Source of the DNA: Antarcticibacterium flavum | Lineage (GTDB): Bacteria; Bacteroidota; Bacteroidia; Flavobacteriales; Flavobacteriaceae | NCBI RefSeq assembly: GCF_006159205.1 | Contig: NZ_CP040812.1 | Coordinates: 3,968,001-4,032,000 of the forward strand | Direction of reading: 5' to 3' | DNA length: 64,000 nucleotides | Part shown: piece after piece, positions 52,020-64,000 of the stretch | Layout of the letters: each line of letters opens with the position of its first letter | How positions within the stretch are numbered: the stretch's first letter is position 1 | Position numbers and translations under genes: made by a program | Notes under the pieces: generated by a model | Database searches by the model: none | What the model saw: the letters and a program-made list of their open reading frames with translations, nothing else | Told to the model about the DNA's origin: nothing

Positions 52020-54401
52020 GTGAAAAACAACTTTAAAATCGCATGGAGAAGCCTTGGAAAGAGCAAGGCCTATACTGCTATTAACATCCTGGGACTGGCT
52101 GCGGGGATGGCCGGTTTTATTATTGTTTTAATGGTGCTAAACTTTGAAATGAGTTATGATAAATGGGACCCGGAACTGCAGCAGGTGCATAGGATCTCAA
52201 TGAGGGTACAGGATGATATCATGGAAGCCACACCGGCACCACTTGCCTCTTTTTTAGCTGAAAAACATCCCGGGATTGAAGCTGCAACCTCAATGCAGGG
52301 TGCAGGGGAATACGAGGTCCTCATAAGCAATGAGCATAAAAGTATTTATTACAAGGGATTCACATCTGCCGATTCTCTTTTCCTGCAGGTCTTTCCCTAT
52401 GAGCTATCAAGCGGGAACAGGGCTACCGCACTGGATGCTCCAAATGCAGTGATCATAAGTGAAGAATTGTCTAAAGTTCTTTTTGGGTCCAGGAACCCTA
52501 TGGGTGAAACTGTCAAAATTTTTAATGCCATGGAAGGGGTGATTACGGGGGTGATCAAAAAACCGACAACACCTTCGCACCGTACAGTGCACTTGGTAAT
52601 GAGAGATCCCTATGCAAACCAGAATTTTTTCTGGAATAATTTTTCTTATGACACCTACATTAAATTAAAAGAACCCGTGGAGGAGGCTGCTCTTGATGTG
52701 GGACTAAACCGCATCTTTTTTGAGGAGCGTATAAAAGGGGATGAACAGCAAATGGCAGCATATAAGGCTGGCAACAGCCCTGTGCTATTTAGCGATGCTG
52801 TTCCCAATATTCAAAATTTCTCCAAATTTGGCAACAGTAATATGAAAACAGTTTCTATTCTGTTCATCCTGGCTGTCCTGCTATTATTTACAGGTGCCAT
52901 AAATTTTAGTAACCTTACTGTGGCGAAATCCATAAGCAGGGCAAAGGAGGTAGGAATTCGAAAAACCCTGGGGTCTGGTCGGCAAAAGCTCATTTTCCAA
53001 TTTATGAGTGAGACGGGTCTTCAGTGTACAATCAGCTTAATAATAGCTATCCTGGTGGTGTTGATTGGTTTGCCATATCTCAACTCTTCCCTCAACCTTC
53101 AGCTTAGTTTTATGGGGCAGAATTCTTGGGACCTTTTGATGCAACTGGGAATTTGCCTGTTAGTCATCACACTCTTATCGGGTATTTATCCTGCTTTATA
53201 CCTGTCCAGGTTAAACCCGGTAAAGGTTTTAAAGGGCAATTTTTCCGGAGGAAAAAAAGGACTTGGGTTTCGAAATGTATTGTTGACATTTCAATTCATT
53301 GTCACCGGCTTTTTTATTGTAGCCATTATTGGTGTGAACCGGCAGCTGGATTTTATGCAGAATATGGATAAGGGATTTACAGATGAGCAGGTGTTGCGCA
53401 TTGAAACGACTCAAGCCACCCGGGAACAGGGATTTGATCAAACCCGCCTGGCCCTGTTATCCATTCCGGGGGTAAGTAGTGTAGCCAAGACCACCACAGT
53501 ACCCGGTGATAAAATAGCCGACTCCTCAACCTACAATTTCAATTATAAAGCACAACAGGTTCGAATGGGATCGGTCAAAGTGAGTACAGATTATTTTAAG
53601 ACGCTGGAGGTGCCGCTGGTATCGGGTAGGTATTTCAACGAAAGTGTGGCCGATCAAAATACCCGCAGCGCCATTATCAATGAAGCTGCAGCAAGGAAGT
53701 TACCGGTGGATGATCCTATAGGCGAAACCATCTCTTTTGGAGGGTGTGATGAGGGCGACGTACAAATTGTGGGAGTGGTTAAGGATATAAACGTGCATGG
53801 ATTTGAATTTACAGTAAAACCTGCGGTTTATACTATTGAAAATAAAGCCTGTATGTATCAAAGTGGTGGGGCTATTTTGGTAAAGCTCAGGTCCAATCAA
53901 ATCCAGGGTACTGTAGCGGCAATTGAGCAGGAATGGAAATCTATTGAACCCAATTTCCCAATTCGTTATTCCTTTCTGGATACCAATTTTCAGCAGCTGT
54001 TCAGTTCTTACTACAGGCTACAAAAGATACTCAGTTTTTTTGGTGGTATCGCAATCCTCATTTCTATTATGGGATTATTTGCCTTGACAGCTTTCATCAT
54101 TAAGCAACGCACCCGCGAAATAGGAATAAGGAAATTGCTGGGAGCAAATTTGAAAACCATAACAACACTTATCGGCAGGGACTTTTTGCTGCTGGTATTC
54201 CTGGCTACCCTTATTTCAATTCCTATAAGCTGGTGGGCTGTGAACCAATGGCTTCAGGATTTCGCTTATAAAGCCAGCCTTGATTGGTGGATATACGCTT
54301 CCGCAGGGATTATTGTTTTAATTATAGCTATTGTTACCGTAAGCTTCCAAACCGTCAAAGCAGCAATGCAAAATCCCGTGGATAGTTTAAGGACAGAGTA
54401 G
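52020..54401 (+). CDS. FtsX/MacB-type ABC permease, paralogue 6
   Basis: A 793-aa two-module permease with a GTG start (52020), the only one of the six not starting with ATG. Opening KNNFKIAWRSLGKSKAYTAI, TM1 INILGLAAGMAGFIIVLMVL. Hallmarks KEVGIRKTLGSGRQKL and REIGIRKLLGANLKTI. Ends NPVDSLRTE. It directly precedes the second ATPase. Confidence 0.94.
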   Translation: MKNNFKIAWRSLGKSKAYTAINILGLAAGMAGFIIVLMVLNFEMSYDKWDPELQQVHRISMRVQDDIMEATPAPLASFLAEKHPGIEAATSMQGAGEYEVLISNEHKSIYYKGFTSADSLFLQVFPYELSSGNRATALDAPNAVIISEELSKVLFGSRNPMGETVKIFNAMEGVITGVIKKPTTPSHRTVHLVMRDPYANQNFFWNNFSYDTYIKLKEPVEEAALDVGLNRIFFEERIKGDEQQMAAYKAGNSPVLFSDAVPNIQNFSKFGNSNMKTVSILFILAVLLLFTGAINFSNLTVAKSISRAKEVGIRKTLGSGRQKLIFQFMSETGLQCTISLIIAILVVLIGLPYLNSSLNLQLSFMGQNSWDLLMQLGICLLVITLLSGIYPALYLSRLNPVKVLKGNFSGGKKGLGFRNVLLTFQFIVTGFFIVAIIGVNRQLDFMQNMDKGFTDEQVLRIETTQATREQGFDQTRLALLSIPGVSSVAKTTTVPGDKIADSSTYNFNYKAQQVRMGSVKVSTDYFKTLEVPLVSGRYFNESVADQNTRSAIINEAAARKLPVDDPIGETISFGGCDEGDVQIVGVVKDINVHGFEFTVKPAVYTIENKACMYQSGGAILVKLRSNQIQGTVAAIEQEWKSIEPNFPIRYSFLDTNFQQLFSSYYRLQKILSFFGGIAILISIMGLFALTAFIIKQRTREIGIRKLLGANLKTITTLIGRDFLLLVFLATLISIPISWWAVNQWLQDFAYKASLDWWIYASAGIIVLIIAIVTVSFQTVKAAMQNPVDSLRTE

Positions 54402-54612
54402 GCCCCCAACCCCCAAAGGGGGAGTATATAAACGAAACAGAACCAGGAAACAAGAACCAAGAACCAGGAACCAAGAGCAAGAAACAAGAGAAGCCCTCTA
54501 GGGGAATACTAATCAGGAAAAAAGGAGGGGTTAGCTCAAAAGAATTTTTACCAAAAAACTGATAACTGATAACCGATAACTGACAACCGATAATAAACTA
54601 AAGACTAAAAAA
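54402..54612. repeat. Permease spacer 6: composite repeat
   Basis: CCCCC/GGGGG hairpin around 54402-54422, purine tract of caagaacc units (about 54437-54490), short CCCTCTAGGGG hairpin, block atactaatcaggaaaaaagg, then ctgataac/cgataac units before the ATPase ATG. Confidence 0.78.
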
Positions 54613-55293
54613 ATGCTACAACTAGACCACATCTACAAATACGTAAAACAGGGGGGGAGACGAATATTCCTGCTGAACGATCTAAGCTTAAAAGTTGAAG
54701 AAGGGGAGTTCTTTTCGGTAATGGGGCCTTCGGGTTCGGGGAAATCTACGCTGCTCAATATAATTGGAATGCTGGATGGCTTTGAGGAGGGAGAGTATTT
54801 TTTTATGAACGAGCCGGTGCATAAATTAAAGGAAAAGGATCGTACAAAGCTGTTTCATCACAATGTAGGTTTTATATTCCAGGCATATCACCTGCTGGAT
54901 GAGCTTACGGTTTATGAAAATATAGAGACCCCACTACTTTATAAAAACGTAAGATCATCAGAGCGAAAAGCGATGGTGGCCGATATGCTGGACAAATTCA
55001 ATATTGTTGGCAAGAAAGACTTGTTCCCTGCCCAGCTTAGCGGGGGGCAGCAGCAATTGGTGGGAATCGCCAGGGCACTAATTACCAGGCCAAAGTTAAT
55101 CCTGGCAGATGAGCCTACCGGAAACCTCAATTCCAAACAGGGAGACGAAATTATGCAAGTGTTTAAGGAGCTTAATGAGGAGGGGGTGACCATCATCCAG
55201 GCCACGCATTCTGAAAGTAATGCGACCTATGGCAGCAGAACCTTACATTTAATGGACGGTACAATCGTAAGACACAAATCTGAAATCCTATAG
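54613..55293 (+). CDS. ABC transporter ATP-binding protein (MacB-NBD type), second
   Basis: A 226-aa NBD: Walker A GPSGSGKST, Q-loop IFQAYHLLDEL, signature LSGGQQQL, Walker B LILADEPTGNLNS, H-loop ATHSESNA. The residue after LSGGQQQ is Leu where the family nearly always has Arg (compare LSGGQQQR in the first ATPase). It lies after the six permeases and 2 bp before the TolC gene, and is clearly a paralogue of the first NBD rather than a copy of recent date. Confidence 0.94.
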   Translation: MLQLDHIYKYVKQGGRRIFLLNDLSLKVEEGEFFSVMGPSGSGKSTLLNIIGMLDGFEEGEYFFMNEPVHKLKEKDRTKLFHHNVGFIFQAYHLLDELTVYENIETPLLYKNVRSSERKAMVADMLDKFNIVGKKDLFPAQLSGGQQQLVGIARALITRPKLILADEPTGNLNSKQGDEIMQVFKELNEEGVTIIQATHSESNATYGSRTLHLMDGTIVRHKSEIL

Positions 55294-55295
55294 AA

Positions 55296-56708
55296 ATGCT
55301 TCGAACACTTTTATGTATTATTTTTCTGTTGGGAGCAGGGAGTTCCTTTTGTCAAACCGATACGCTTAGATTAAACCTGGACGAGTGTATCAAAATTGCA
55401 CTGGAAAATAACCTGGAGCTTCGAAGGGCCGACTTAAGAGCAGAAACTTCTGAAAGAAATTTGAGTAATTCCCGGGCGAACCTTCTTCCAAGCCTTAATG
55501 CCCGTATTAACGGTGGGGTAAACAACGGGCGGAGTATAGATCCTTTTACCAACACTTATATTGAGGAACAACTTTCATTTTCCAATGTAGGATTAAGCCT
55601 GGGAGCTACTGTTTTTAATGGGCTAAGGTTAAGGAATAGTATTTTAAGGGACAGGTATAACCTGCAGGCATCAGAAATGGAGGTGGAGGAGGCCAGGCAA
55701 AATTTGATCCTGGATGTAACCCTGGCATACCTGCAGGCATTGAACAACAGGGACCTCGTAAGGCTGGCAGAGGTAAGGCTGGAAACTACATCCAGGCAAC
55801 TGGACCGCCTTCAGGATCTCTATGAAGAGGGATCTGGGAATCCTGCTGCGTATACAGATATACTCGGGCAAATAGCCAATGACAGGACAGCCGTGGTGCG
55901 AGCTGGAAACGCCCTTACCAATGCGATCCTCACCCTTTCCCAGCTCCTTAATGTGGAGCAGCCGGTGGTACCGGAAACCCTTGCCCGGGAAGAGATTATT
56001 GTCGATTATACTTTCTCTCCTGAAGAGGTGTATGAACAGGCACTGGAAGGTTTTCCATCTATAAAGGCAAGGGAATTGAGGATTGAAGCAGCAAAAAAGA
56101 ATATCAATGTTGCCAGAGCATTCTATTTTCCTGAAATCTCTTTCTTCGCACAGCTTAATACAAATTTCTCCAGTGCCGCCAGGTTCTTTACAGAAACAGG
56201 TACAAGAGTTACGGAGACCGGTGGGTTTGTAAACCTGGGAGACGGTACGCTACCTGTTTTTACCAATGAGACTATTTTTGAGAGACAGGAAATAGGGGTC
56301 TATGACCAGTTCAGCAATAACCTTAACTCGGTTGTAGGGGTAGCGGTAGACATTCCTTTGTTCAACGGCTTCAGGGCCCGCAATAACACGGCACTTCAAA
56401 AGATAGTACTGGAAGAATCGAAAGTGGAACTGGAAAACACGCGGCTCATTTTCAGGCAATCCATACAGCAGGCACATGCGGATATGCAGGCGGCATACAG
56501 GGAATTCCACATTCTGCAGGAGCAACTTGAAGCATACCGCGAATCCTTCCGCATAAATGAAATAAGGTTTAACAGCGGGGTTTCCAATATTGTAGAATTT
56601 ATAATTAGCAAAAACAATCTGGATATGGCAGAGATCAACCTGGCAAATGCCAAATATGAATACCTGTTAAGAGTGCAGGTGCTGGACTATTTCAGGGGGA
56701 AGGATTAA
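55296..56708 (+). CDS. TolC-family outer membrane efflux protein
   Basis: A 470-aa protein with signal peptide MLRTLLCIIFLLGAGSSFCQ. Two OEP repeats: first from LNLDECIKIALENNLELRRA, second from EQALEGFPSIKARELRIEAA, with the beta segments NARINGGVNNGRS and EISFFAQLNTNFS and the VAVDIPLFNGFRARN strand. It ends in FNSGVSNIVEFIISKNNLDM. The gene starts 2 bp after the ATPase stop, so it is co-transcribed. It provides the outer-membrane channel for the permease system and may also serve the C39 exporter downstream, which lacks its own TolC in the window. Confidence 0.95.
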   Translation: MLRTLLCIIFLLGAGSSFCQTDTLRLNLDECIKIALENNLELRRADLRAETSERNLSNSRANLLPSLNARINGGVNNGRSIDPFTNTYIEEQLSFSNVGLSLGATVFNGLRLRNSILRDRYNLQASEMEVEEARQNLILDVTLAYLQALNNRDLVRLAEVRLETTSRQLDRLQDLYEEGSGNPAAYTDILGQIANDRTAVVRAGNALTNAILTLSQLLNVEQPVVPETLAREEIIVDYTFSPEEVYEQALEGFPSIKARELRIEAAKKNINVARAFYFPEISFFAQLNTNFSSAARFFTETGTRVTETGGFVNLGDGTLPVFTNETIFERQEIGVYDQFSNNLNSVVGVAVDIPLFNGFRARNNTALQKIVLEESKVELENTRLIFRQSIQQAHADMQAAYREFHILQEQLEAYRESFRINEIRFNSGVSNIVEFIISKNNLDMAEINLANAKYEYLLRVQVLDYFRGKD

Positions 56709-57057
56709 CTATTTAATGAAGTAAGCATAGCCATTCAATGAAAAAATTAATAGCTATCTGGCACTTTCGTTTTTTTTCGACCAAAATCAATTAAATCCGA
56801 TAAAAAAAATTCAACCAATTCTTTTTTTTCCTAAATTCAAATTAGGTAATACCTGCTCCCCCTAATAAGTTTTTCTTCAATAGTTTAAAGTTTTTTGGGA
56901 TTGATCCTTCTAAAAAGTTTTTATCCCTGGATGTGATGTGTGGCTGTCATTTCTAAATGACGGGTGTGGTAGGCCAATGATTTATGAATCCCCGGTAAAG
57001 GAATTCAATTCTTATTAGTTTCCTAATTAAATTTAATCTCAAATAGTTGAAATTGAG
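56709..57057. other. Intergenic region upstream of the peptide export operon
   Basis: A/T-rich, with a palindrome GTCATTT-ct-AAATGAC (56946-56961) about 100 bp before the C39 exporter, possibly an operator. No gene longer than about 18 codons is convincing. Confidence 0.5.
56946..56961. promoter_or_regulatory. Palindrome, candidate operator
   Basis: Perfect 7-bp arms GTCATTT and AAATGAC separated by two bases; no T-run follows. It is the only strong dyad between the TolC gene and the peptide export operon. Confidence 0.4.
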
Positions 57058-59241
57058 ATGTTCAGGATAGCAGAATTTCCGGGATACAGACAACTGGACC
57101 AAATGGATTGCGGGCCTACCTGTCTTAAAATGATAACTGAATTTTTCGGGAGGGACTTCCATTTAGATTACCTCAGGAAAATTTCTGGTCTTCAAAAAAG
57201 CGGGGCTTCCTTTGCGGGATTATCTACAGCGCTTGAAGAGTTAGGGATAGATTCAATTGGTGTAAAGGCAGAAATGGAAGAATTAATAAATGAAGTTCCT
57301 CTTCCTGCTATTGCCCACTGGAACTCAAATCACTTTGTGGTGGTTTATAAGACTAACCGTAAGTACATCTTTATATCAGATCCTGCAGTAGGGAGGGTAA
57401 AATATAAACATTCCGAATTTCGTGAAAAATGGGCAGGAGGTTCTGCAAAAGGTGTTCTGCTTTTAGTAGAACCTACAGAACATTACCTGGAACAGGAGTC
57501 GCCTGAAATGAAAAGCAAGAGCAGTTTCCAATTTTTAATCGACTACCTCTTGCCTTACCGAAAATATTTGAATCAGGTGCTCATAGGTCTTTTTTTGGCC
57601 ACTGTAATCCAATTGATCTTGCCGTTTTTAACCCAAAGCCTGGTGGACTATGGGATCAATTTTCAGAACATAGGGTTTATTCATCTCATTGTGATTGCCC
57701 AACTTTTTCTATTCCTCTCCCGGTCAGCAACGGAAGTGATTAGAGACTGGCTATTACTTTATATAAGTACAAGAGTGAATATAGAGATGATCTCAGATTT
57801 TCTGGATAAACTACTCAAACTGCCCATATCATATTTTGATTCTAAGACAACAGGAGATTTCCTGCAAAGAATCTATGATCACCAAAGAGTTGATGAATTT
57901 CTTAGCGGAAGGGCTTTAACTATCCCATTTGATATATTTTATATTATTGTTTTTGCTGTAGTGCTCTACTTTTTTGATCCCACCATTACCTTCATCTTCA
58001 TTTTGGGCACAGGCTTGTTTTTGGGGTGGTCCCTATTATTTATGAAAAAGAAGGAATTTCTGGATCATCAACTTTTCGAATTGAACCGAAAGGATCAATC
58101 GTTATTTCTTCAAATTTTGTTGGCAGTAACCGAAATTAAATTAAATAATTCTGAAGCCAGGCGCAAACAGGAATGGAAGAATAACCAATTTTCCTTATTT
58201 GGTATACACACCAGAATTCTAAAGGTAGATCAGGCTCAAATTAATGGCGGGAGATTTCTAAATGAACTTACCAGTATCCTGATTGTTTTTTGGTCTGCAA
58301 AAGCTGTAATAGCAGGGGAGATAACATTAGGTACTATGTTGGCTATTCAGTTTATAATTGGCAGCCTTTCTTTACCCGTTTCGAACACTATTGATTTTCT
58401 GGTGGGGTATCAAAGAGCGATGCTTTCATTAGTAAGGCTTTCCGAAGTACATAATCAAACCCTGGAAAATAGCAAGGAAAAGAAGGAGACTAAAATCAAA
58501 TCAGATGATATAGAATTAAAGAAAGTAAGTTTTAGGTATGGGGAACCTTCCACTCCTTTGATTCTTAAAGAACTTGATATAATTATTCCTCAGGGTAAAA
58601 CCACTGCAATAGTTGGTGCCAGTGGTTCAGGAAAAACCACCTTGCTTAAATTGTTGGCCAGAATTTATAATCCTACAGAAGGTAAAATAATGGTTGGGAA
58701 TGTTAATCTCGAGGAGGTTCATTCCAATTCTTGGCGAAGAAAGTGCGGGATTGTACTACAGGACGGAATTCTTTTCCATGATACCATTGAACGTAATATA
58801 ACCGAATCGAATTCCAATGATCCCACTGATAGAGATTTGATGAAGAAGGCCGTTGAGCTTTCCAATTTGGATGAGATGATTGATAAACTTCCTCTGGGAT
58901 ATCAAACTAAGGTAGGGGAACAGGGACAGCTCTTGAGTGGAGGAGAAAAACAAAGATTGCTAATTGCCAGGGCATTATATAAAAATCCGGATTATTTATT
59001 TTTCGATGAGGCAACCAGTTCACTTGATTCACAAAACGAAAAAGCTATAACTGAAAATTTATCTTCTTTTTATAGAAACAAAACCGTGGTGGTGATTGCT
59101 CATCGGCTTTCAACCGTAAAGCATGCAGATCAAATTCTGGTGATGAACGATGGTAAGATTGTGGAGAAAGGAAACCACCAGGAATTAATCTCTTTACAAG
59201 GGTTTTATTATGATCTAATCGTAAATCAATTGGGAGCTTAA
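57058..59241 (+). CDS. C39-peptidase-containing ABC exporter (bacteriocin/peptide type)
   Basis: A 727-aa protein. Residues 1-150 are a C39 peptidase: Q12 and catalytic C18 (RQLDQMDCGPTCL), H92 (NSNHFVVVYK), D108 (FISDPAVG). Six TM helices fill about 165-440, then an NBD with Walker A VGASGSGKTT, signature LLSGGEKQR, Walker B YLFFDEATSSLD and H-loop IAHRLSTV. All active residues are present. Such proteins cleave leaders after Gly-Gly while exporting the core peptide. The 41-aa GG peptide at 62331 is the obvious substrate. One base separates it from the adaptor start. Confidence 0.96.
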   Translation: MFRIAEFPGYRQLDQMDCGPTCLKMITEFFGRDFHLDYLRKISGLQKSGASFAGLSTALEELGIDSIGVKAEMEELINEVPLPAIAHWNSNHFVVVYKTNRKYIFISDPAVGRVKYKHSEFREKWAGGSAKGVLLLVEPTEHYLEQESPEMKSKSSFQFLIDYLLPYRKYLNQVLIGLFLATVIQLILPFLTQSLVDYGINFQNIGFIHLIVIAQLFLFLSRSATEVIRDWLLLYISTRVNIEMISDFLDKLLKLPISYFDSKTTGDFLQRIYDHQRVDEFLSGRALTIPFDIFYIIVFAVVLYFFDPTITFIFILGTGLFLGWSLLFMKKKEFLDHQLFELNRKDQSLFLQILLAVTEIKLNNSEARRKQEWKNNQFSLFGIHTRILKVDQAQINGGRFLNELTSILIVFWSAKAVIAGEITLGTMLAIQFIIGSLSLPVSNTIDFLVGYQRAMLSLVRLSEVHNQTLENSKEKKETKIKSDDIELKKVSFRYGEPSTPLILKELDIIIPQGKTTAIVGASGSGKTTLLKLLARIYNPTEGKIMVGNVNLEEVHSNSWRRKCGIVLQDGILFHDTIERNITESNSNDPTDRDLMKKAVELSNLDEMIDKLPLGYQTKVGEQGQLLSGGEKQRLLIARALYKNPDYLFFDEATSSLDSQNEKAITENLSSFYRNKTVVVIAHRLSTVKHADQILVMNDGKIVEKGNHQELISLQGFYYDLIVNQLGA

Positions 59242-59242
59242 T

Positions 59243-60529
59243 ATGGACAGGAAGTATATTAATAAGAAGATGATGAGACCAGATGCCGAGCCAAATTGGA
59301 TTTTACGGCGGGGGCAGAATATTGTGGTTCTGGTCTTCATATTAGCTGTAGTTCTTGCCAGTTTTTTTTCCTTTAATGAAATCATAATAGGAAAGGTTAA
59401 GGTGACCTCTAAATTTCCCCCAGTAGAAATAATAGCTAAACAGCAAGGAAAACTGATGGAACTACATTTCCAGCCCGGTGATATGGTAAAAGCGGGAGCA
59501 GTTTTAGCAATGATTGAAAATTCTGCAAATGCCGGAGATGTCAATTATTTAAAGGAAAAATTGACCAATAGGGTTTTCTTTGAAACAATAGATTCCTTAA
59601 AATTAGTTTTTCCCACTGATCTTAGGTTAGGGAATTTGATACAGCCATCATACCAATATTTTTTATCCAATTATCAGGAGGTCATTTTGGAAAAAATATT
59701 AAAAAACAATGAGCTTATTCAGTTTCAGTTGAAGGATGAGGTTAAAAGCCAGAAACGCATTGCAGAAAATAAAAATAAAGAACTTCTGCTGGCGGATAGG
59801 TCCTTTGAATTGCAGGAAAGAAATTTGGAAAGACACAGGGAGTTATTGAAAAAGGGAGTAATATCTCATCACGATTTGGAAAAAGTGGAGAATGAATTTT
59901 TAGAAGCCCAACAGAAGTATGAAATTATTACTCAACAAATTGAGCAAGTAAAGATTGACCTAAGCACTTTGGAGAAGGATAGAAAACTGGCAGAAAGCTC
60001 ACATTTTAGGACTTCATCTACAGGAGCTGTGAAACTTGAAGCAGCCAGAGAAGCTTTATTAAGCAATATCCTGAACTGGGAGGAAAAATACCTACTCGTT
60101 AGCCCAATTGATGGTAAGCTTTCTTTTAATAATGTTTGGGGAAATTTTCAGAATGTAGAGGAAGGGGAATTGGTTTTTGTTATTATGCCTTTGAATAGTA
60201 ACAGCGTGGTTGGAAGATGTAAAGTTCCGGTGAGGAATTCGGGCAAAATATTGGAAGGACAATCGGCATACCTGAAGCTGGACAATTATCCTTACAGAGA
60301 ATGGGGGATTTTAAAAGGTAAGGTGGAGTCAATTTCTGATATTCCCGGCGCGGGCAGTGAAGATTATCTAGTCTTTCTGAGTATAGATAGTTTGACTACT
60401 TCTTATGGGAGAGAGCTAAAATTTAATAGGGAGTTAATTGGGGATGTGGAAATCATTTTAGAAGAGACAAGTGTTATAGAAAGGATCTTTTATGAATTTA
60501 GGCATCTATGGTCGTTGAAGGAATACTAG
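59243..60529 (+). CDS. HlyD-family secretion adaptor
   Basis: A 428-aa protein with one TM segment (NIVVLVFILAVVLASFFSF, about 28-47), barrel-sandwich half motif (GKLMELHFQPGDMVKAGAVL), a long coiled coil (about 130-260: SQKRIAENKNKELLLADRS, LERHRELLKKGVISHHDLEK), second half motif (WEEKYLLVSPIDGKLSF) and beta-barrel (KILEGQSAYLKLDNYPYREW). The typical partner of a C39 ABC exporter. Co-transcribed with the exporter and the regulator gene. Confidence 0.94.
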   Translation: MDRKYINKKMMRPDAEPNWILRRGQNIVVLVFILAVVLASFFSFNEIIIGKVKVTSKFPPVEIIAKQQGKLMELHFQPGDMVKAGAVLAMIENSANAGDVNYLKEKLTNRVFFETIDSLKLVFPTDLRLGNLIQPSYQYFLSNYQEVILEKILKNNELIQFQLKDEVKSQKRIAENKNKELLLADRSFELQERNLERHRELLKKGVISHHDLEKVENEFLEAQQKYEIITQQIEQVKIDLSTLEKDRKLAESSHFRTSSTGAVKLEAAREALLSNILNWEEKYLLVSPIDGKLSFNNVWGNFQNVEEGELVFVIMPLNSNSVVGRCKVPVRNSGKILEGQSAYLKLDNYPYREWGILKGKVESISDIPGAGSEDYLVFLSIDSLTTSYGRELKFNRELIGDVEIILEETSVIERIFYEFRHLWSLKEY

Positions 60530-60535
60530 GTGAAG

Positions 60536-62245
60536 ATGGAAAAACAGATTTTTAAATATTCGCTCATTATACAGCTTTTCTTTTCAATTGGTATTGTAAA
60601 GGTCAATGCACAGGGAAAAAGTTACCATCAAGTGCATTTGAAGGATCCTTCCTATCAGGAAATTCAGGAACAGGAATTTGAAGCCTTGGATATGGAGGAT
60701 TGGCAGAAACTTTCTGAACTAGTAGACTTTCACATCTCAAAGGCAAAAGCTGAGAATAATAGTATTGAAATTGCCAGAGCATTCTATTTCAAGACAGATA
60801 TGGAAGAGCCTCTTGTTGCCTTACAATATGCAGATTCTATTATATACTATACCAGAGGCAGTGACCATCATAATTATCCAACTACAGGTTATGAATTAAA
60901 AGGGCATTTATACTTTCAACTGGGGAATTTTCCTATGGCTTTGGAAAATTATCTCACTGCCTATAACCTGGCCCTGGAAAAAGATAACCTTGAACAACAA
61001 AGAGAAATTTCTTTGGCTATTGCTGCAATAAGAAATATTAATGGACAGCATTATGCGGCGGCTGAACTCTATAAAAGATCCTTAAGACTTTTAAAATCCC
61101 AACCCGATTTTCAGAACCAGCATTATGAAGATTATTTGCTCCTTGTCTATAACCTTGCTCTTACTCATCTTCGTTTACAAGAGGTAGATTCTGCGGGTAT
61201 ATACGCGAAAAAGGGAATAGAGCAGACTATTACGCATAAAGACACAAGTAATTATATAGATTTTGTATTGTTGGATGCACAAATTAATTATTACCAAAAT
61301 GAGCACGGGATAGCAAAGGATACACTCCTGAAATATTTAGATTTATTTGATGGTACAAGTAAGGCTATAAAGCTTTATTATCTCGGAAAAATAGAAGAGA
61401 GAAGCGAAAACAGGGAACTGGCTATAAAATACTTTAGAGATATTGATTCAATAATTTCAATAACCAAAGATCCTTTTCCTGAGGCTAAGGATGTCTATCA
61501 GCAGTTAATTATGAACTCTCTTACAGAAAATGATAAAAGAAAGCACGTAGAATACATTGGAAAGTTGATCCATTATGATAGTATTCTATCTACCGGTAAG
61601 GAAAATGTACTTAATATGGCGGTCGCTTCATATGATTTACCCTATCTAAAGTTTCAAAAGGAAAAAACTGAGGAACAGTTAAGAACGAAAGAGAGATTTG
61701 TTCTTTTTGCTAGTTTTTTAGCGGGTATTGGGTCTTTATCCGGTGTATATTTTTATATACGTACACGCAGAATGAAATTGAAATTAAAAACTCTTCTGCA
61801 AGACGGAATTAAGAAATCAAATCAAACAAGAACTTCTACTGATGGAAAAATTCCCCACCCACCTTCTGTACCTGAAGATATACGAAATGATCTTTTAAGT
61901 AAACTACAAAGGTTTGAAGAGTCAGAGAGATTTTTGTGTAAAGATCTGGACATGGCAACTCTTGCGGAGGAGCTGGGCACTAATACCAGCTACCTTTCTG
62001 TGGTCATTAACCACTATAAGCAAATGAATTTCCCGAATTACCTGAAAGAATTAAGAATTTCCACGGCAGTTAGACGGTTGCCGGAAGAACCAATGCTTTT
62101 AAAATATAGTAACCAGGGTCTTGCAGATACTTTCGGGTTTAAAACAGGAGAAACCTTTTCCAAGGCTTTTTATAAAAGCACAGGAGTGTATCCTTCAAAA
62201 TTTATAAATGAGTTAAAATCGAGAAATTTAGAAGGCCATTTATAA
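60536..62245 (+). CDS. TPR-containing, membrane-anchored AraC-type regulator
   Basis: About 569 aa from the ATG at 60536 (a GTG at 60530 directly after the adaptor stop is the alternative). N-terminal signal/anchor KYSLIIQLFFSIGIVKVNAQ; residues about 50-370 are TPR-like helical pairs (GYELKGHLYFQLGNFPMALE, HYAAAELYKRSLRLLK, LALTHLRLQEVDSAGIYAKK); a TM helix near 393-412 (FASFLAGIGSLSGVYFYI); then an AraC-type DNA-binding domain (LGTNTSYLSVVINHY, LADTFGFKTGETFSKAFYKS, VYPSKFINELK). Sensor outside, DNA-binding part inside: a one-component regulator. Being in the exporter operon, it may sense the exported peptide; this is inference. Confidence 0.88.
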   Translation: MEKQIFKYSLIIQLFFSIGIVKVNAQGKSYHQVHLKDPSYQEIQEQEFEALDMEDWQKLSELVDFHISKAKAENNSIEIARAFYFKTDMEEPLVALQYADSIIYYTRGSDHHNYPTTGYELKGHLYFQLGNFPMALENYLTAYNLALEKDNLEQQREISLAIAAIRNINGQHYAAAELYKRSLRLLKSQPDFQNQHYEDYLLLVYNLALTHLRLQEVDSAGIYAKKGIEQTITHKDTSNYIDFVLLDAQINYYQNEHGIAKDTLLKYLDLFDGTSKAIKLYYLGKIEERSENRELAIKYFRDIDSIISITKDPFPEAKDVYQQLIMNSLTENDKRKHVEYIGKLIHYDSILSTGKENVLNMAVASYDLPYLKFQKEKTEEQLRTKERFVLFASFLAGIGSLSGVYFYIRTRRMKLKLKTLLQDGIKKSNQTRTSTDGKIPHPPSVPEDIRNDLLSKLQRFEESERFLCKDLDMATLAEELGTNTSYLSVVINHYKQMNFPNYLKELRISTAVRRLPEEPMLLKYSNQGLADTFGFKTGETFSKAFYKSTGVYPSKFINELKSRNLEGHL

Positions 62246-62330
62246 ATGACGGTTCCAGCATCTTTTATTTTGAGTAAGGATATGTTTATTTAGTACGAAG
62301 TTTATTATTAACCATTTAAATTTATAGATC
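62246..62330. promoter_or_regulatory. Leader region of the GG-peptide gene
   Basis: 85 bp between the regulator stop and the peptide ATG, A/T-rich with TATGTTTA (62281-62288), one base off the TAnnTTTG consensus. A separate promoter for the peptide is plausible but not proven. Confidence 0.3.
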
Positions 62331-62456
62331 ATGAAAAAATCATTGCAAGATTTCAAACCACGCGCCTTGAAAAATCTGGAAAAGATTAAAGGAGGAACTG
62401 GAGGGGGAGGGGCTATTGATAGGGACAAGGTTAGACGTCCCAAGCAGGGTAAATAA
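62331..62456 (+). CDS. Double-glycine leader peptide (bacteriocin/RiPP or signal precursor)
   Basis: A 41-codon gene below usual ORF length limits. The leader, residues 1-22, starts MKKSLQDFKPRALKNLEKIK and ends GG, with hydrophobic residues L-x-x-L-x-x-I before the cleavage site as in GG leaders read by C39 peptidases. The core (residues 23-41) is TGGGGAIDRDKVRRPKQGK: Gly-rich, basic, no Cys, Ser or aromatic residue and only the first Thr as a hydroxyl. It therefore cannot be a lanthipeptide or disulfide bacteriocin; an unmodified bacteriocin or a signalling peptide is more likely. It follows the C39 exporter, adaptor and regulator, and is closed by a terminator. Confidence 0.82.
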   Translation: MKKSLQDFKPRALKNLEKIKGGTGGGGAIDRDKVRRPKQGK

Positions 62457-62479: not shown

Positions 62480-62512
62480 ATTCCGGTCCTTCACCGGGGC
62501 CGGGATTTTTTT
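62480..62512 (+). terminator. Rho-independent terminator after the peptide gene
   Basis: ATTCCGGTCC (62480-62489) pairs with GGGCCGGGAT (62497-62506), a 10-bp stem with two G-U pairs, loop ttcaccg, then seven T. It lies 23 bp after the peptide stop and 12 bp before the next gene; being strong, it should separate the peptide transcript from the peptidase. Confidence 0.8.
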
Positions 62513-62524
62513 AGAATGCTAATA

Positions 62525-64000
62525 ATGAAAAGAACAACAGTTATTTTATCAATTATTTTCCTTTTAGGAAATGATTTCAGCTCCTGGGGTCAGCAGGAGA
62601 AATTTATTTCCAAATATCCTGAAGTTCAGGAACAGGAGAAAACAGAAATTATTTTTGATAAGAAGGTGAAAGATAATTTTCCTGTTTTAAATGATCTTGA
62701 AAACGTTGAGGTCCGGGAGTGGTTTGCTGCCCAGGACTCCCTCGCCGAAAAATATTTTTCTGATAATCCAATTATGAAAGCCTACCTGAAAAGATTTACT
62801 GAGCTACAGGATATTCAAAAGGAAAGAATAAGCCTGATTAAAGTGAATGAACAGGGGAATTACTTTTATTTAAAATATAATGATTCAACAAAAATTGATA
62901 AACTCTTTTATAAACAGGACCTTTCGGCAGCTGAGGTTGAACTTTTGGATCCTGCTGCTATACCTGAACAAGTTGGAGATATTACTTACTTAAGTCCTTC
63001 TTTTGATGGAAAAAAAATTGCCGTTGGCTTCAAGGTAAATGAAGAGGATTTTGATTCCCAGGTGATCATCCTGGATATAGAAAACACAAAAATTTTAAAA
63101 GACAAAATAAACCATATTAACCCTGACTTTGGAGGGATTGAATGGCTGCCAGATAGTTCAGGGTTTATTTATTTATATTTCCCGGTAGTAGATCGCAGCT
63201 CGCCGGGATATAAGAAAGATTCTTATTCCGTGATTCATTTTTTAGGTCAGGATCCGGAAGAGCGAAATAGGATTTTTGGGAACAATGAGAATGTATCAAT
63301 TCCAGCGGACTATTATCCTAAAGTAAAAATAGGCTCCAGTATTGATGATTACCTCATTGGATATTCCGCGACTTCGAATGACTATTATGATGGCTATATC
63401 GCTTCTATGGAAGGTATCCTTAATCGTAAACCTGTATGGAAGCCATTTTTTAAAGCAAATGATAAAGTGTTTTTTACTGAAGGAGAAGTTAGGAATAACG
63501 AATTTATCTTTCGTCAGGGTACTGATCAAGGGAACAGGATTGCAAAGGTTGAAATAAAAGATCCACATTTTAATAACGTAACTGTATTGGCTGAAGGAAC
63601 ACAGGATAACCCCATAACCAGATTGGAAGTGACTAAGGATAACATCTATTTTTCACGGTCAAAATTTGGGGTAGAGGTTTCTGTATTTTCACTTAATAGG
63701 AATGAGGAATTAAAAGAATTGGAAACTCCTTTTAAAGCAGGTTTTCTCAGCTTCTTTGGTGCCAGTATAACCGAAAATTCTATTGGAGTTGAACTGGATG
63801 GCTGGACATCAGATTATACCAGGTATTTAATAAATGACAGGGGAGTATTTCAGGAGGAAGGTTTGAAAAAAAATGCTGATTACCCGGGATTTGATAAACT
63901 TGTTTCTGAACAAATAATGATTTCCTCTCATGATGGGATAGAGGTACCGCTTTCTCTGGTATACCATAAAGATCTCGAAATGGATGTGGAGAAAGAAGTT
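62525..64000 (+). CDS. Prolyl-oligopeptidase-type S9 peptidase (partial, 3' end outside window)
   Basis: 492 codons are present; the gene continues past the window. The start is taken at the second ATG (62525, MKRTTVILSIIFLLG), a signal peptide; the first ATG (62516) is 3 codons upstream. The visible part is the seven-bladed propeller of S9 enzymes: KYFSDNPIMKAYLKRF, YLSPSFDGKKIAVGFKV, IEWLPDSSGFIYLYFP, then the switch to the catalytic domain at MISSHDGIEVPLSLVYHKDL. The catalytic Ser, Asp and His lie outside. Exported S9 peptidases next to a peptide gene could process or degrade the peptide; that is inference. Confidence 0.85.
   Translation, partial: MKRTTVILSIIFLLGNDFSSWGQQEKFISKYPEVQEQEKTEIIFDKKVKDNFPVLNDLENVEVREWFAAQDSLAEKYFSDNPIMKAYLKRFTELQDIQKERISLIKVNEQGNYFYLKYNDSTKIDKLFYKQDLSAAEVELLDPAAIPEQVGDITYLSPSFDGKKIAVGFKVNEEDFDSQVIILDIENTKILKDKINHINPDFGGIEWLPDSSGFIYLYFPVVDRSSPGYKKDSYSVIHFLGQDPEERNRIFGNNENVSIPADYYPKVKIGSSIDDYLIGYSATSNDYYDGYIASMEGILNRKPVWKPFFKANDKVFFTEGEVRNNEFIFRQGTDQGNRIAKVEIKDPHFNNVTVLAEGTQDNPITRLEVTKDNIYFSRSKFGVEVSVFSLNRNEELKELETPFKAGFLSFFGASITENSIGVELDGWTSDYTRYLINDRGVFQEEGLKKNADYPGFDKLVSEQIMISSHDGIEVPLSLVYHKDLEMDVEKEV

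Follow-up and report, generated by a model that had tools for sequence, protein, structure and literature searches.

The 64,000-nucleotide (nt) stretch of the Antarcticibacterium flavum genome analysed here (contig NZ_CP040812.1, positions 3,968,001 to 4,032,000; hereafter the window, whose numbering we use) carries near its end a gene for a 41-amino acid (aa) peptide with a double-glycine (GG) leader next to a C39 exporter, which raises the question of what such a peptide is for. We lean slightly towards the explanation that it is the pheromone of a conjugative element, which would be exported and sensed by a periplasmic tetratricopeptide repeat (TPR) regulator that drives production of the peptide itself and of rteC, and hence transfer. 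The peptide, exporter, sensor and an S9 peptidase form a conserved cassette on mobile elements, and a palindrome is common to the peptide gene, rteC and, in part, the exporter gene; these palindromes shared with rteC suggest that the peptide is a signal telling a mobile element when to move. The genes of the cassette and its candidate operators are arranged in the window as follows.

56946-56961, no strand assigned: candidate operator before the exporter gene, GTCATTTCTAAATGAC, matching the palindrome core at 11/12 (0/200 dinucleotide shuffles)
57058-59241, + strand: C39 peptidase-containing ABC exporter, 727 aa (Pfam Peptidase_C39 4e-36, ABC_membrane, ABC_tran)
59243-60529, + strand: HlyD-family periplasmic adaptor, 428 aa (Pfam HlyD_3 2.6e-13)
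60536-62245, + strand: candidate receptor with an N-terminal signal segment, TPR, one transmembrane (TM) segment and HTH_18 (Pfam, hydropathy, AlphaFold2, fold searches)
62235-62250, no strand assigned: candidate operator before the peptide gene, GCCATTTATAAATGAC, matching the core at 12/12 (0/200 shuffles)
62331-62456, + strand: GG-leader peptide gene, 41 aa, ATG to TAA (leader 62331-62396, core 62397-62453)
62480-62512, + strand: terminator-like hairpin followed by a T-run, between the peptide and S9 genes (-16.5 kcal/mol)
62525-64000, + strand: secreted S9 prolyl-oligopeptidase family enzyme (Peptidase_S9 8.5e-35, Peptidase_S9_N)

We read 16 peptide loci: this one, 11 recovered with a peptide profile (L055-L065) and four recovered through the regulator (L120, L121, L124 and L125), in which the peptide was sought between regulator and S9 gene. 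The peptide is flanked by the regulator and S9 in all 16, and the exporter and adaptor lie within the stretch in 14 (the exceptions being L124 and L125); gene order or strand is altered in L058, L059, L120, L121 and L124. Our genome searches scored only the best first-look candidates, and misses are possible; they recovered the peptide at E≤0.001 in 6/397 genomes sampled from the family and at E≤0.01 in 7/16 genomes of the genus. The sequence-only reading, made earlier from this DNA alone, had named absence of the small open reading frame from exporter-carrying genomes as evidence against it, and the outcome is the opposite: seven of the 16 genus genomes have an exporter match of at least 59% identity, and six have both. 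In G405, the seventh genome with the peptide, a contig edge leaves the C-terminal end of the exporter, and in the seventh exporter genome (G407) only residues 1-448 were matched and there was no peptide match. An order-wide search matched the peptide in 31/395 genomes, with three clear members; the remaining 28 matches, weak and mostly to the leader only, were taken, without being checked one by one, as other GG-leader peptides. Frame breaks, reflecting decay or sequencing error, affect the exporter and also the ATPase of L060 (G406), beside an intact peptide, and the S9 gene of L064 (G399).

The palindrome, with core CATTTATAAATG, lies about 92-111 nt 5' of the peptide start in 11/11 loci scored, each at 11/12 or better with 0/200 shuffles. 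This scoring left out L063, L059 and L125, while L121 and L124 had no peptide match in it; by eye the palindrome is also present before the peptide in L063, L121 and, in changed form, L124. The copy at 62235-62250 overlaps the last codons of the regulator gene. Before the exporter, also scored at 11 loci, the match is 11-12/12 in this genome, L061, L062 and L064 (0/200 shuffles), 10/12 in L055, L056, L057 and L060 (12-19 of 200 shuffles) and 8/12 in L058, L120 and L121, where the exporter comes after S9. Before rteC it is at least 10/12 in 14/15 loci having both the regulator and rteC, and two copies 20-22 bp apart precede rteC in 11 of these 15 loci, or 12 counting a weak pair in this genome. 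Best scores in 17 rteC loci that have no regulator are 8 or 9/12 (at least 10/12 in 0/17), and RteC is therefore not favoured as the protein that binds the palindrome. These controls derive from 20 regions, mostly best matches, of which L137 was unused as an extension of L119 and L147 and L149 had no rteC match; in one control, L136, about 4.7 kb separate rteC from a weak and partial match to the regulator (25% identity). Across the 4.35-Mb genome, at most one mismatch to GTCATTTATAAATGAC occurs at only two places, before the exporter and before the peptide. With up to two mismatches there are four places per strand, the same as for the reversed pattern (4), so that only the location of the two best is informative.

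The cassette is, judging from the genes that accompany it, mobile. Downstream of S9 on the same contig are rteC, an HTH_17 protein and a 222-aa protein with no Pfam match, followed by two proteins that gave weak matches, the first to ATPases and the second to endonuclease/exonuclease/phosphatase. The fetched stretch contains rteC in 13/16 loci; it is missing in L059, L125 and L063, the last on a contig of only 6.6 kb. Of 14 loci examined for conjugative-transposon genes, whose flanks differ in length and which do not include L058 and L059, four have them: TraG P-loop, Transposon_TraM and DUF4138 in G257, G406 and G399, for each of which 20 kb more was fetched, with L124 as the fourth. Tyrosine-integrase genes occur in L055, L060, L062 and L064, upstream of the exporter, and in L120, after the adaptor; a tRNA sits just outside in L055, L060 and L064. 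Four genomes (G398, G399, G402 and G409) have 8.0-11.6 kb in common at 93-97% identity; upstream of this stretch the integrases of G398 and G399 look unrelated, G402 has no match and the G409 contig begins at the exporter. Attachment sites gave no convincing direct repeat of the neighbouring tRNA in L055, L060, L064 or L057, and none with 20 kb more of G257, G406 and G399, where G406 yielded one 14-mer. Within the genus the flanking genes are not common to the genomes (matches in 2 and 6 of 16), which left no basis for an empty-site comparison.

This genome also has a second regulator (L118, G000:C1:2929129-2931746), 54% identical to the first and directly followed by a second rteC. This pair, at 2.929-2.932 Mb, has no peptide, exporter or S9 and lies 18-29 kb from tra genes, which occur together with an HTH_17/ATPase module at 2.950-2.961 Mb; we infer that the pair and the distant tra module are one element. 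A compact element elsewhere (L119, G212:C44) has an integrase, regulator, rteC module and tra genes all on one strand, with no match to peptide, exporter or S9 within 19 kb.

Sequence comparison shows the gene for the 41-aa double-glycine peptide to be genuine and conserved. Its open reading frame and translation agree with the sequence-only reading, which had described a 22-residue leader, MKKSLQDFKPRALKNLEKIKGG, and a 19-residue core, TGGGGAIDRDKVRRPKQGK, lacking Cys, Ser and aromatic residues; one Thr is present. Substitutions among six homologous peptide genes, summed over 15 pairs, fall mostly at the third codon position (158/142/303 for positions 1/2/3). A single-sequence search of 5.8 billion proteins returned 10 homologues besides the query at E<1e-6, and a profile of 24 rows identified 101 related proteins among 989 candidates at a cut-off of E≤1, with source names that include Zunongwangia, Salegentibacter, Arenibacter, Christiangramia, Leeuwenhoekiella, Autumnicola, Dokdonia, Jejuia, Mariniflexile and Kordia. 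Nearly all relatives carry an IDRDK-like motif. Using the pattern [IVL][DRN][RKTQSEND][DRNE]K, 96/101 could be cut at a GG upstream of the motif; those left out of the core counts were three with IERDK, one with IDRDK but no GG and one ending before the motif. Beyond what the pattern demands, Ile or Val occupies motif position 1 in 95/96 cores and Asp occupies positions 2 and 4 in 93/96 and 95/96; the Lys is required by the pattern itself, which makes the conservation of the motif partly a product of construction. The leader is 22 aa long in 75/96 relatives, and the cores are short (mean 19, range 14-36) and hydrophilic, with the motif strongly kept. The earlier argument that a core without modifiable residues speaks against lanthipeptide-type products is weaker for the family, since Ser occurs in 32, Thr in 47, an aromatic residue in 10 and Cys in 1 of the 96 cores. 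As had been noted from the window, a modifying enzyme of the kind that acts on ribosomally synthesized and post-translationally modified peptides (RiPPs) is lacking from the cassette: Pfam and NCBIfam scans detected none among its genes, although one encoded elsewhere in the genome may exist. A hairpin of -8.5 kcal/mol or better precedes a T-run 3' of the peptide stop in 12/16 loci, these values being the best of many windows and having no shuffle control.

Pfam, motif and hydropathy data likewise bear out a neighbouring C39 exporter with its catalytic residues, an adaptor and a membrane-anchored regulator. The exporter has Gln/Cys (QLDQMDCGPTC from residue 12), His (HFVVV from 92) and Asp (SDPAVG from 107) motifs, which we take to be the catalytic motifs of C39, and ABC signatures as well. 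The sequence-only reading had missed the S9 peptidase, whose gene continues past the end of the window, and the mobile-element genes that follow. Read to its stop, the S9 gene proves intact and encodes 722 aa from the ATG at 62525 (alternative start, 62516) to window-equivalent position 64693. Both the Ser-Asp-His triad and the beta-propeller domain are present; among 15 aligned sequences Ser577, Asp661 and His696 are invariant and Arg663 is nearly so. Its nearest solved chain is 2bkl, and the closest chains are prolyl endopeptidases. A crude pattern finds a lipobox-like Cys in 6/13 S9 sequences, the others having different signal-like starts. Oligopeptidases of the S9 prolyl class cleave short peptides, and the cores, given their size and frequent Pro (present in 91/96), would be natural substrates. 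The enzyme may either mature or destroy the signal.

Hydropathy marks two segments in the 569-aa regulator, a hydrophobic one at the N-terminus (5-23) and a TM one (388-406), which by prediction place its TPR domain in the periplasm and its HTH_18 domain in the cytoplasm. In fold searches of its AlphaFold2 model (mean predicted local distance difference test score 87.8), the TPR domain appears to resemble the Rap/NprR pheromone receptors among other TPR proteins. The structural alignment has 29 rows and excludes L060, which is broken, along with L062, L064, L065 and two of the seven L122 genes. As separate observations, L122:5540-17715 (G077) holds seven TPR/TM/HTH_18 regulator-family genes in tandem, and at L130:7926-10425 a regulator of the same family lies between two longer GG-leader peptides of other sequence.

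Given these components, the exporter would cut the 22-aa leader after GG and export the ~19-aa core, as its family suggests, and the adjacent secreted oligopeptidase, whose class cleaves short peptides at the C-terminal side of Pro, may trim or destroy it. The core would bind the periplasmic TPR domain of the membrane-spanning regulator, a step suggested by fold and adjacency, and the HTH_18 domain may then bind the CATTTATAAATG palindromes before the peptide, exporter and rteC genes, presumably as an activator. By homology, RteC would start excision and transfer, as it does downstream of RteB in CTnDOT. If the regulator acts on the palindrome, the peptide and exporter would therefore be self-inducing.

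Several observations weigh against a pheromone that acts in this way. The palindrome was scored on the same loci where it was noticed, and the cut-off of 10 was picked afterwards. The rteC sites of this genome score 8/12, equalled by 197/200 shuffles; single rteC sites are strong only in L056, L057, L060, L061 and L119 (0-2/200 shuffles), the other nine loci being reached by 9-35 of 200. Similarity searches of the window and the following 14 kb detected neither a tra gene nor an integrase and, because of this and the weak rteC sites, the copy in this genome may be a remnant. Another shared factor may bind the palindrome, and L059 and L125, peptide loci with no rteC nearby, lack it, from which we take the palindrome to track the regulator together with rteC. 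Eukaryotic TPR proteins outrank the pheromone receptors in the fold searches, and a core common to several genera is unusual for a strain-specific signal. The regulator family is also far commoner than the peptide (58 vs 6 of 397 genomes).

The regulator's wider distribution bears on the idea that the operator and the link to rteC are real and the peptide is not its ligand: the regulator would sense another cue, and the peptide would be an effector produced on induction of the element, for example one that acts at the surface or aids mating. Regulator-rteC pairs occur without the peptide at L118 and L119, and 12/16 further regulator regions (from the 58 genomes with a regulator match, 14 new genomes plus the second place in this genome) have no S9 of this kind and no peptide of this family. 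We nevertheless find this rather unlikely, as the regulator adjoins the peptide at every locus read, the peptide has its own palindrome wherever scored, and the TPR fold is of a peptide-binding kind. An unmodified bacteriocin carried as cargo, whose core kills competitors while S9 protects the producer by breaking it down in the periplasm and the TPR/HTH protein merely controls production, is in our view clearly unlikely. Peptide, C39 exporter and regulator are a common bacteriocin layout, and a Mariniflexile family member is named 'Bacteriocin-like protein' by its source; the same phylum has C39-linked peptide toxins, the bacteroidetocins (PMC6671954, in excerpt). Yet the core, a short hydrophilic sequence whose motif is strongly conserved, has none of the paired Cys seen in bacteroidetocins, the peptide's palindrome recurs before rteC, and the sensor accompanies the peptide more constantly (16/16 loci) than the exporter does (14). 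Between the two options in the sequence-only reading, a cell-cell signal gains ground and an unmodified bacteriocin becomes less favoured once S9, the rteC/conjugation module and the palindrome common to both genes are taken into account. That S9 is a maturase, cutting after Pro (perhaps Ala) to free an active piece around IDRDKxRRP for signalling or another role, with the C39-cut core as an intermediate, is possible, if doubtful, and is compatible with a pheromone. Pro stands immediately before the motif in 52/96 cores and after DK in 82/96, and the enzyme's invariant triad and its prolyl endopeptidase relatives fit such a role; five cores, however, have no Pro, the other 44 have V, G, A, T, I or M before the motif, and degradation would give an identical pattern.

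As a pheromone system, the cassette resembles the RRNPP systems Rap-Phr/RapI-PhrI of ICEBs1 and Rap-Phr* of pLS20 in joining a TPR protein to an adjacent small propeptide on a mobile element with a link to conjugation control; the propeptide gene adjoins the receptor gene in all 16 loci, and Rap structures can be aligned to the modelled TPR domain, though they rank below eukaryotic TPR proteins. RRNPP peptides are re-imported, whereas the cassette peptide has a C39 exporter and a linked S9 peptidase. Receptors of the RRNPP family, which are known from Firmicutes, act inside the cell and are searched for in the range 250-500 aa (PMC10075063, in excerpt); the 569-aa cassette regulator is longer, and its predicted periplasmic TPR domain is joined through a TM helix to HTH_18. 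Rap-Phr and PrgX control of conjugation is a proposed analogue in which receptor, exporter and host phylum all differ. With RteA-RteB-RteC of CTnDOT the cassette shares rteC with an upstream sensor/transcription factor in a Bacteroidota conjugative element, but its sensor is a one-component protein, TPR/TM/HTH, that comes with an exported peptide, where CTnDOT has a two-component system made upon tetracycline exposure (PMC1976400, in excerpt). Compared with CTnDOT-type elements, tra genes (G257, G406, G399, L124) and integrases (L055, L060, L062, L064, L120) accompany other copies, and in this genome the rteC module alone lies near the cassette, with no tra or integrase match beside it. Bacteroidetocins share a Bacteroidota GG-leader peptide and C39-type exporter; as excerpted (PMC6671954), they have a 15-16 aa leader, a core of 42 aa that contains four Cys in the first two to be described, and genes for a TM protein and mostly a thiol oxidoreductase, all absent from the cassette. 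The paired-Cys core of bacteroidetocin/class IIa-like type is likewise lacking here. Bacteroidales RiPP clusters with peptidase-containing ABC transporter (PCAT) exporters also combine a GG leader, C39 exporter, adaptor and sometimes TPR genes, but those described carry modifying enzymes (PMC10352776, in excerpt) and the cassette has none.

Peptide signals controlling conjugation are known from Firmicutes. In the open-access literature searched, which omits most subscription papers, we found neither a Bacteroidota peptide signal controlling conjugation nor a description of a peptide-exporter-sensor-S9 system. There is close to an even chance that the cassette represents a new class of peptide pheromone in Bacteroidota, in which a C39-exported IDRDK-like core is read outside the inner membrane by a TPR-TM-HTH_18 receptor, is processed or turned over by S9 and controls conjugative elements via rteC, and on which receptor-only elements may eavesdrop. 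If so, it would make a peptide, a receptor and an operator tractable in a phylum in which conjugative elements move many genes between species, would explain a conserved cassette of unnamed small genes, and would suggest that the position before rteC is a slot for exchanging different membrane sensors.

Other neighbours and relatives were considered and set aside. MacB-like permease, ABC ATPase and TolC-like genes (52020-56708) lie directly upstream of the cassette; such genes adjoin it in 0/11 peptide loci examined, with one 51-residue TolC piece in L065. A defence system is not indicated, PADLOC matching only the exporter and the ATPase. The nearest named exporter relatives, in Croceitalea (L004) and Cellulophaga (L005), at 46-47% identity, belong to a different system, because their GG peptides contain Cys and the stretch shows no match to S9 or to TPR/HTH; these peptides, ahead of the C39 exporters (L004:9751-9924 and L005:9749-9928), form a separate family. 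Finally, in control elements L138, L139, L141-L146 and L151, two proteins are encoded before rteC, an asparaginase-like one of ~161 aa and a membrane protein of ~305 aa, possibly another sensor pair; in L144 the membrane protein carries a LuxR-type helix-turn-helix.
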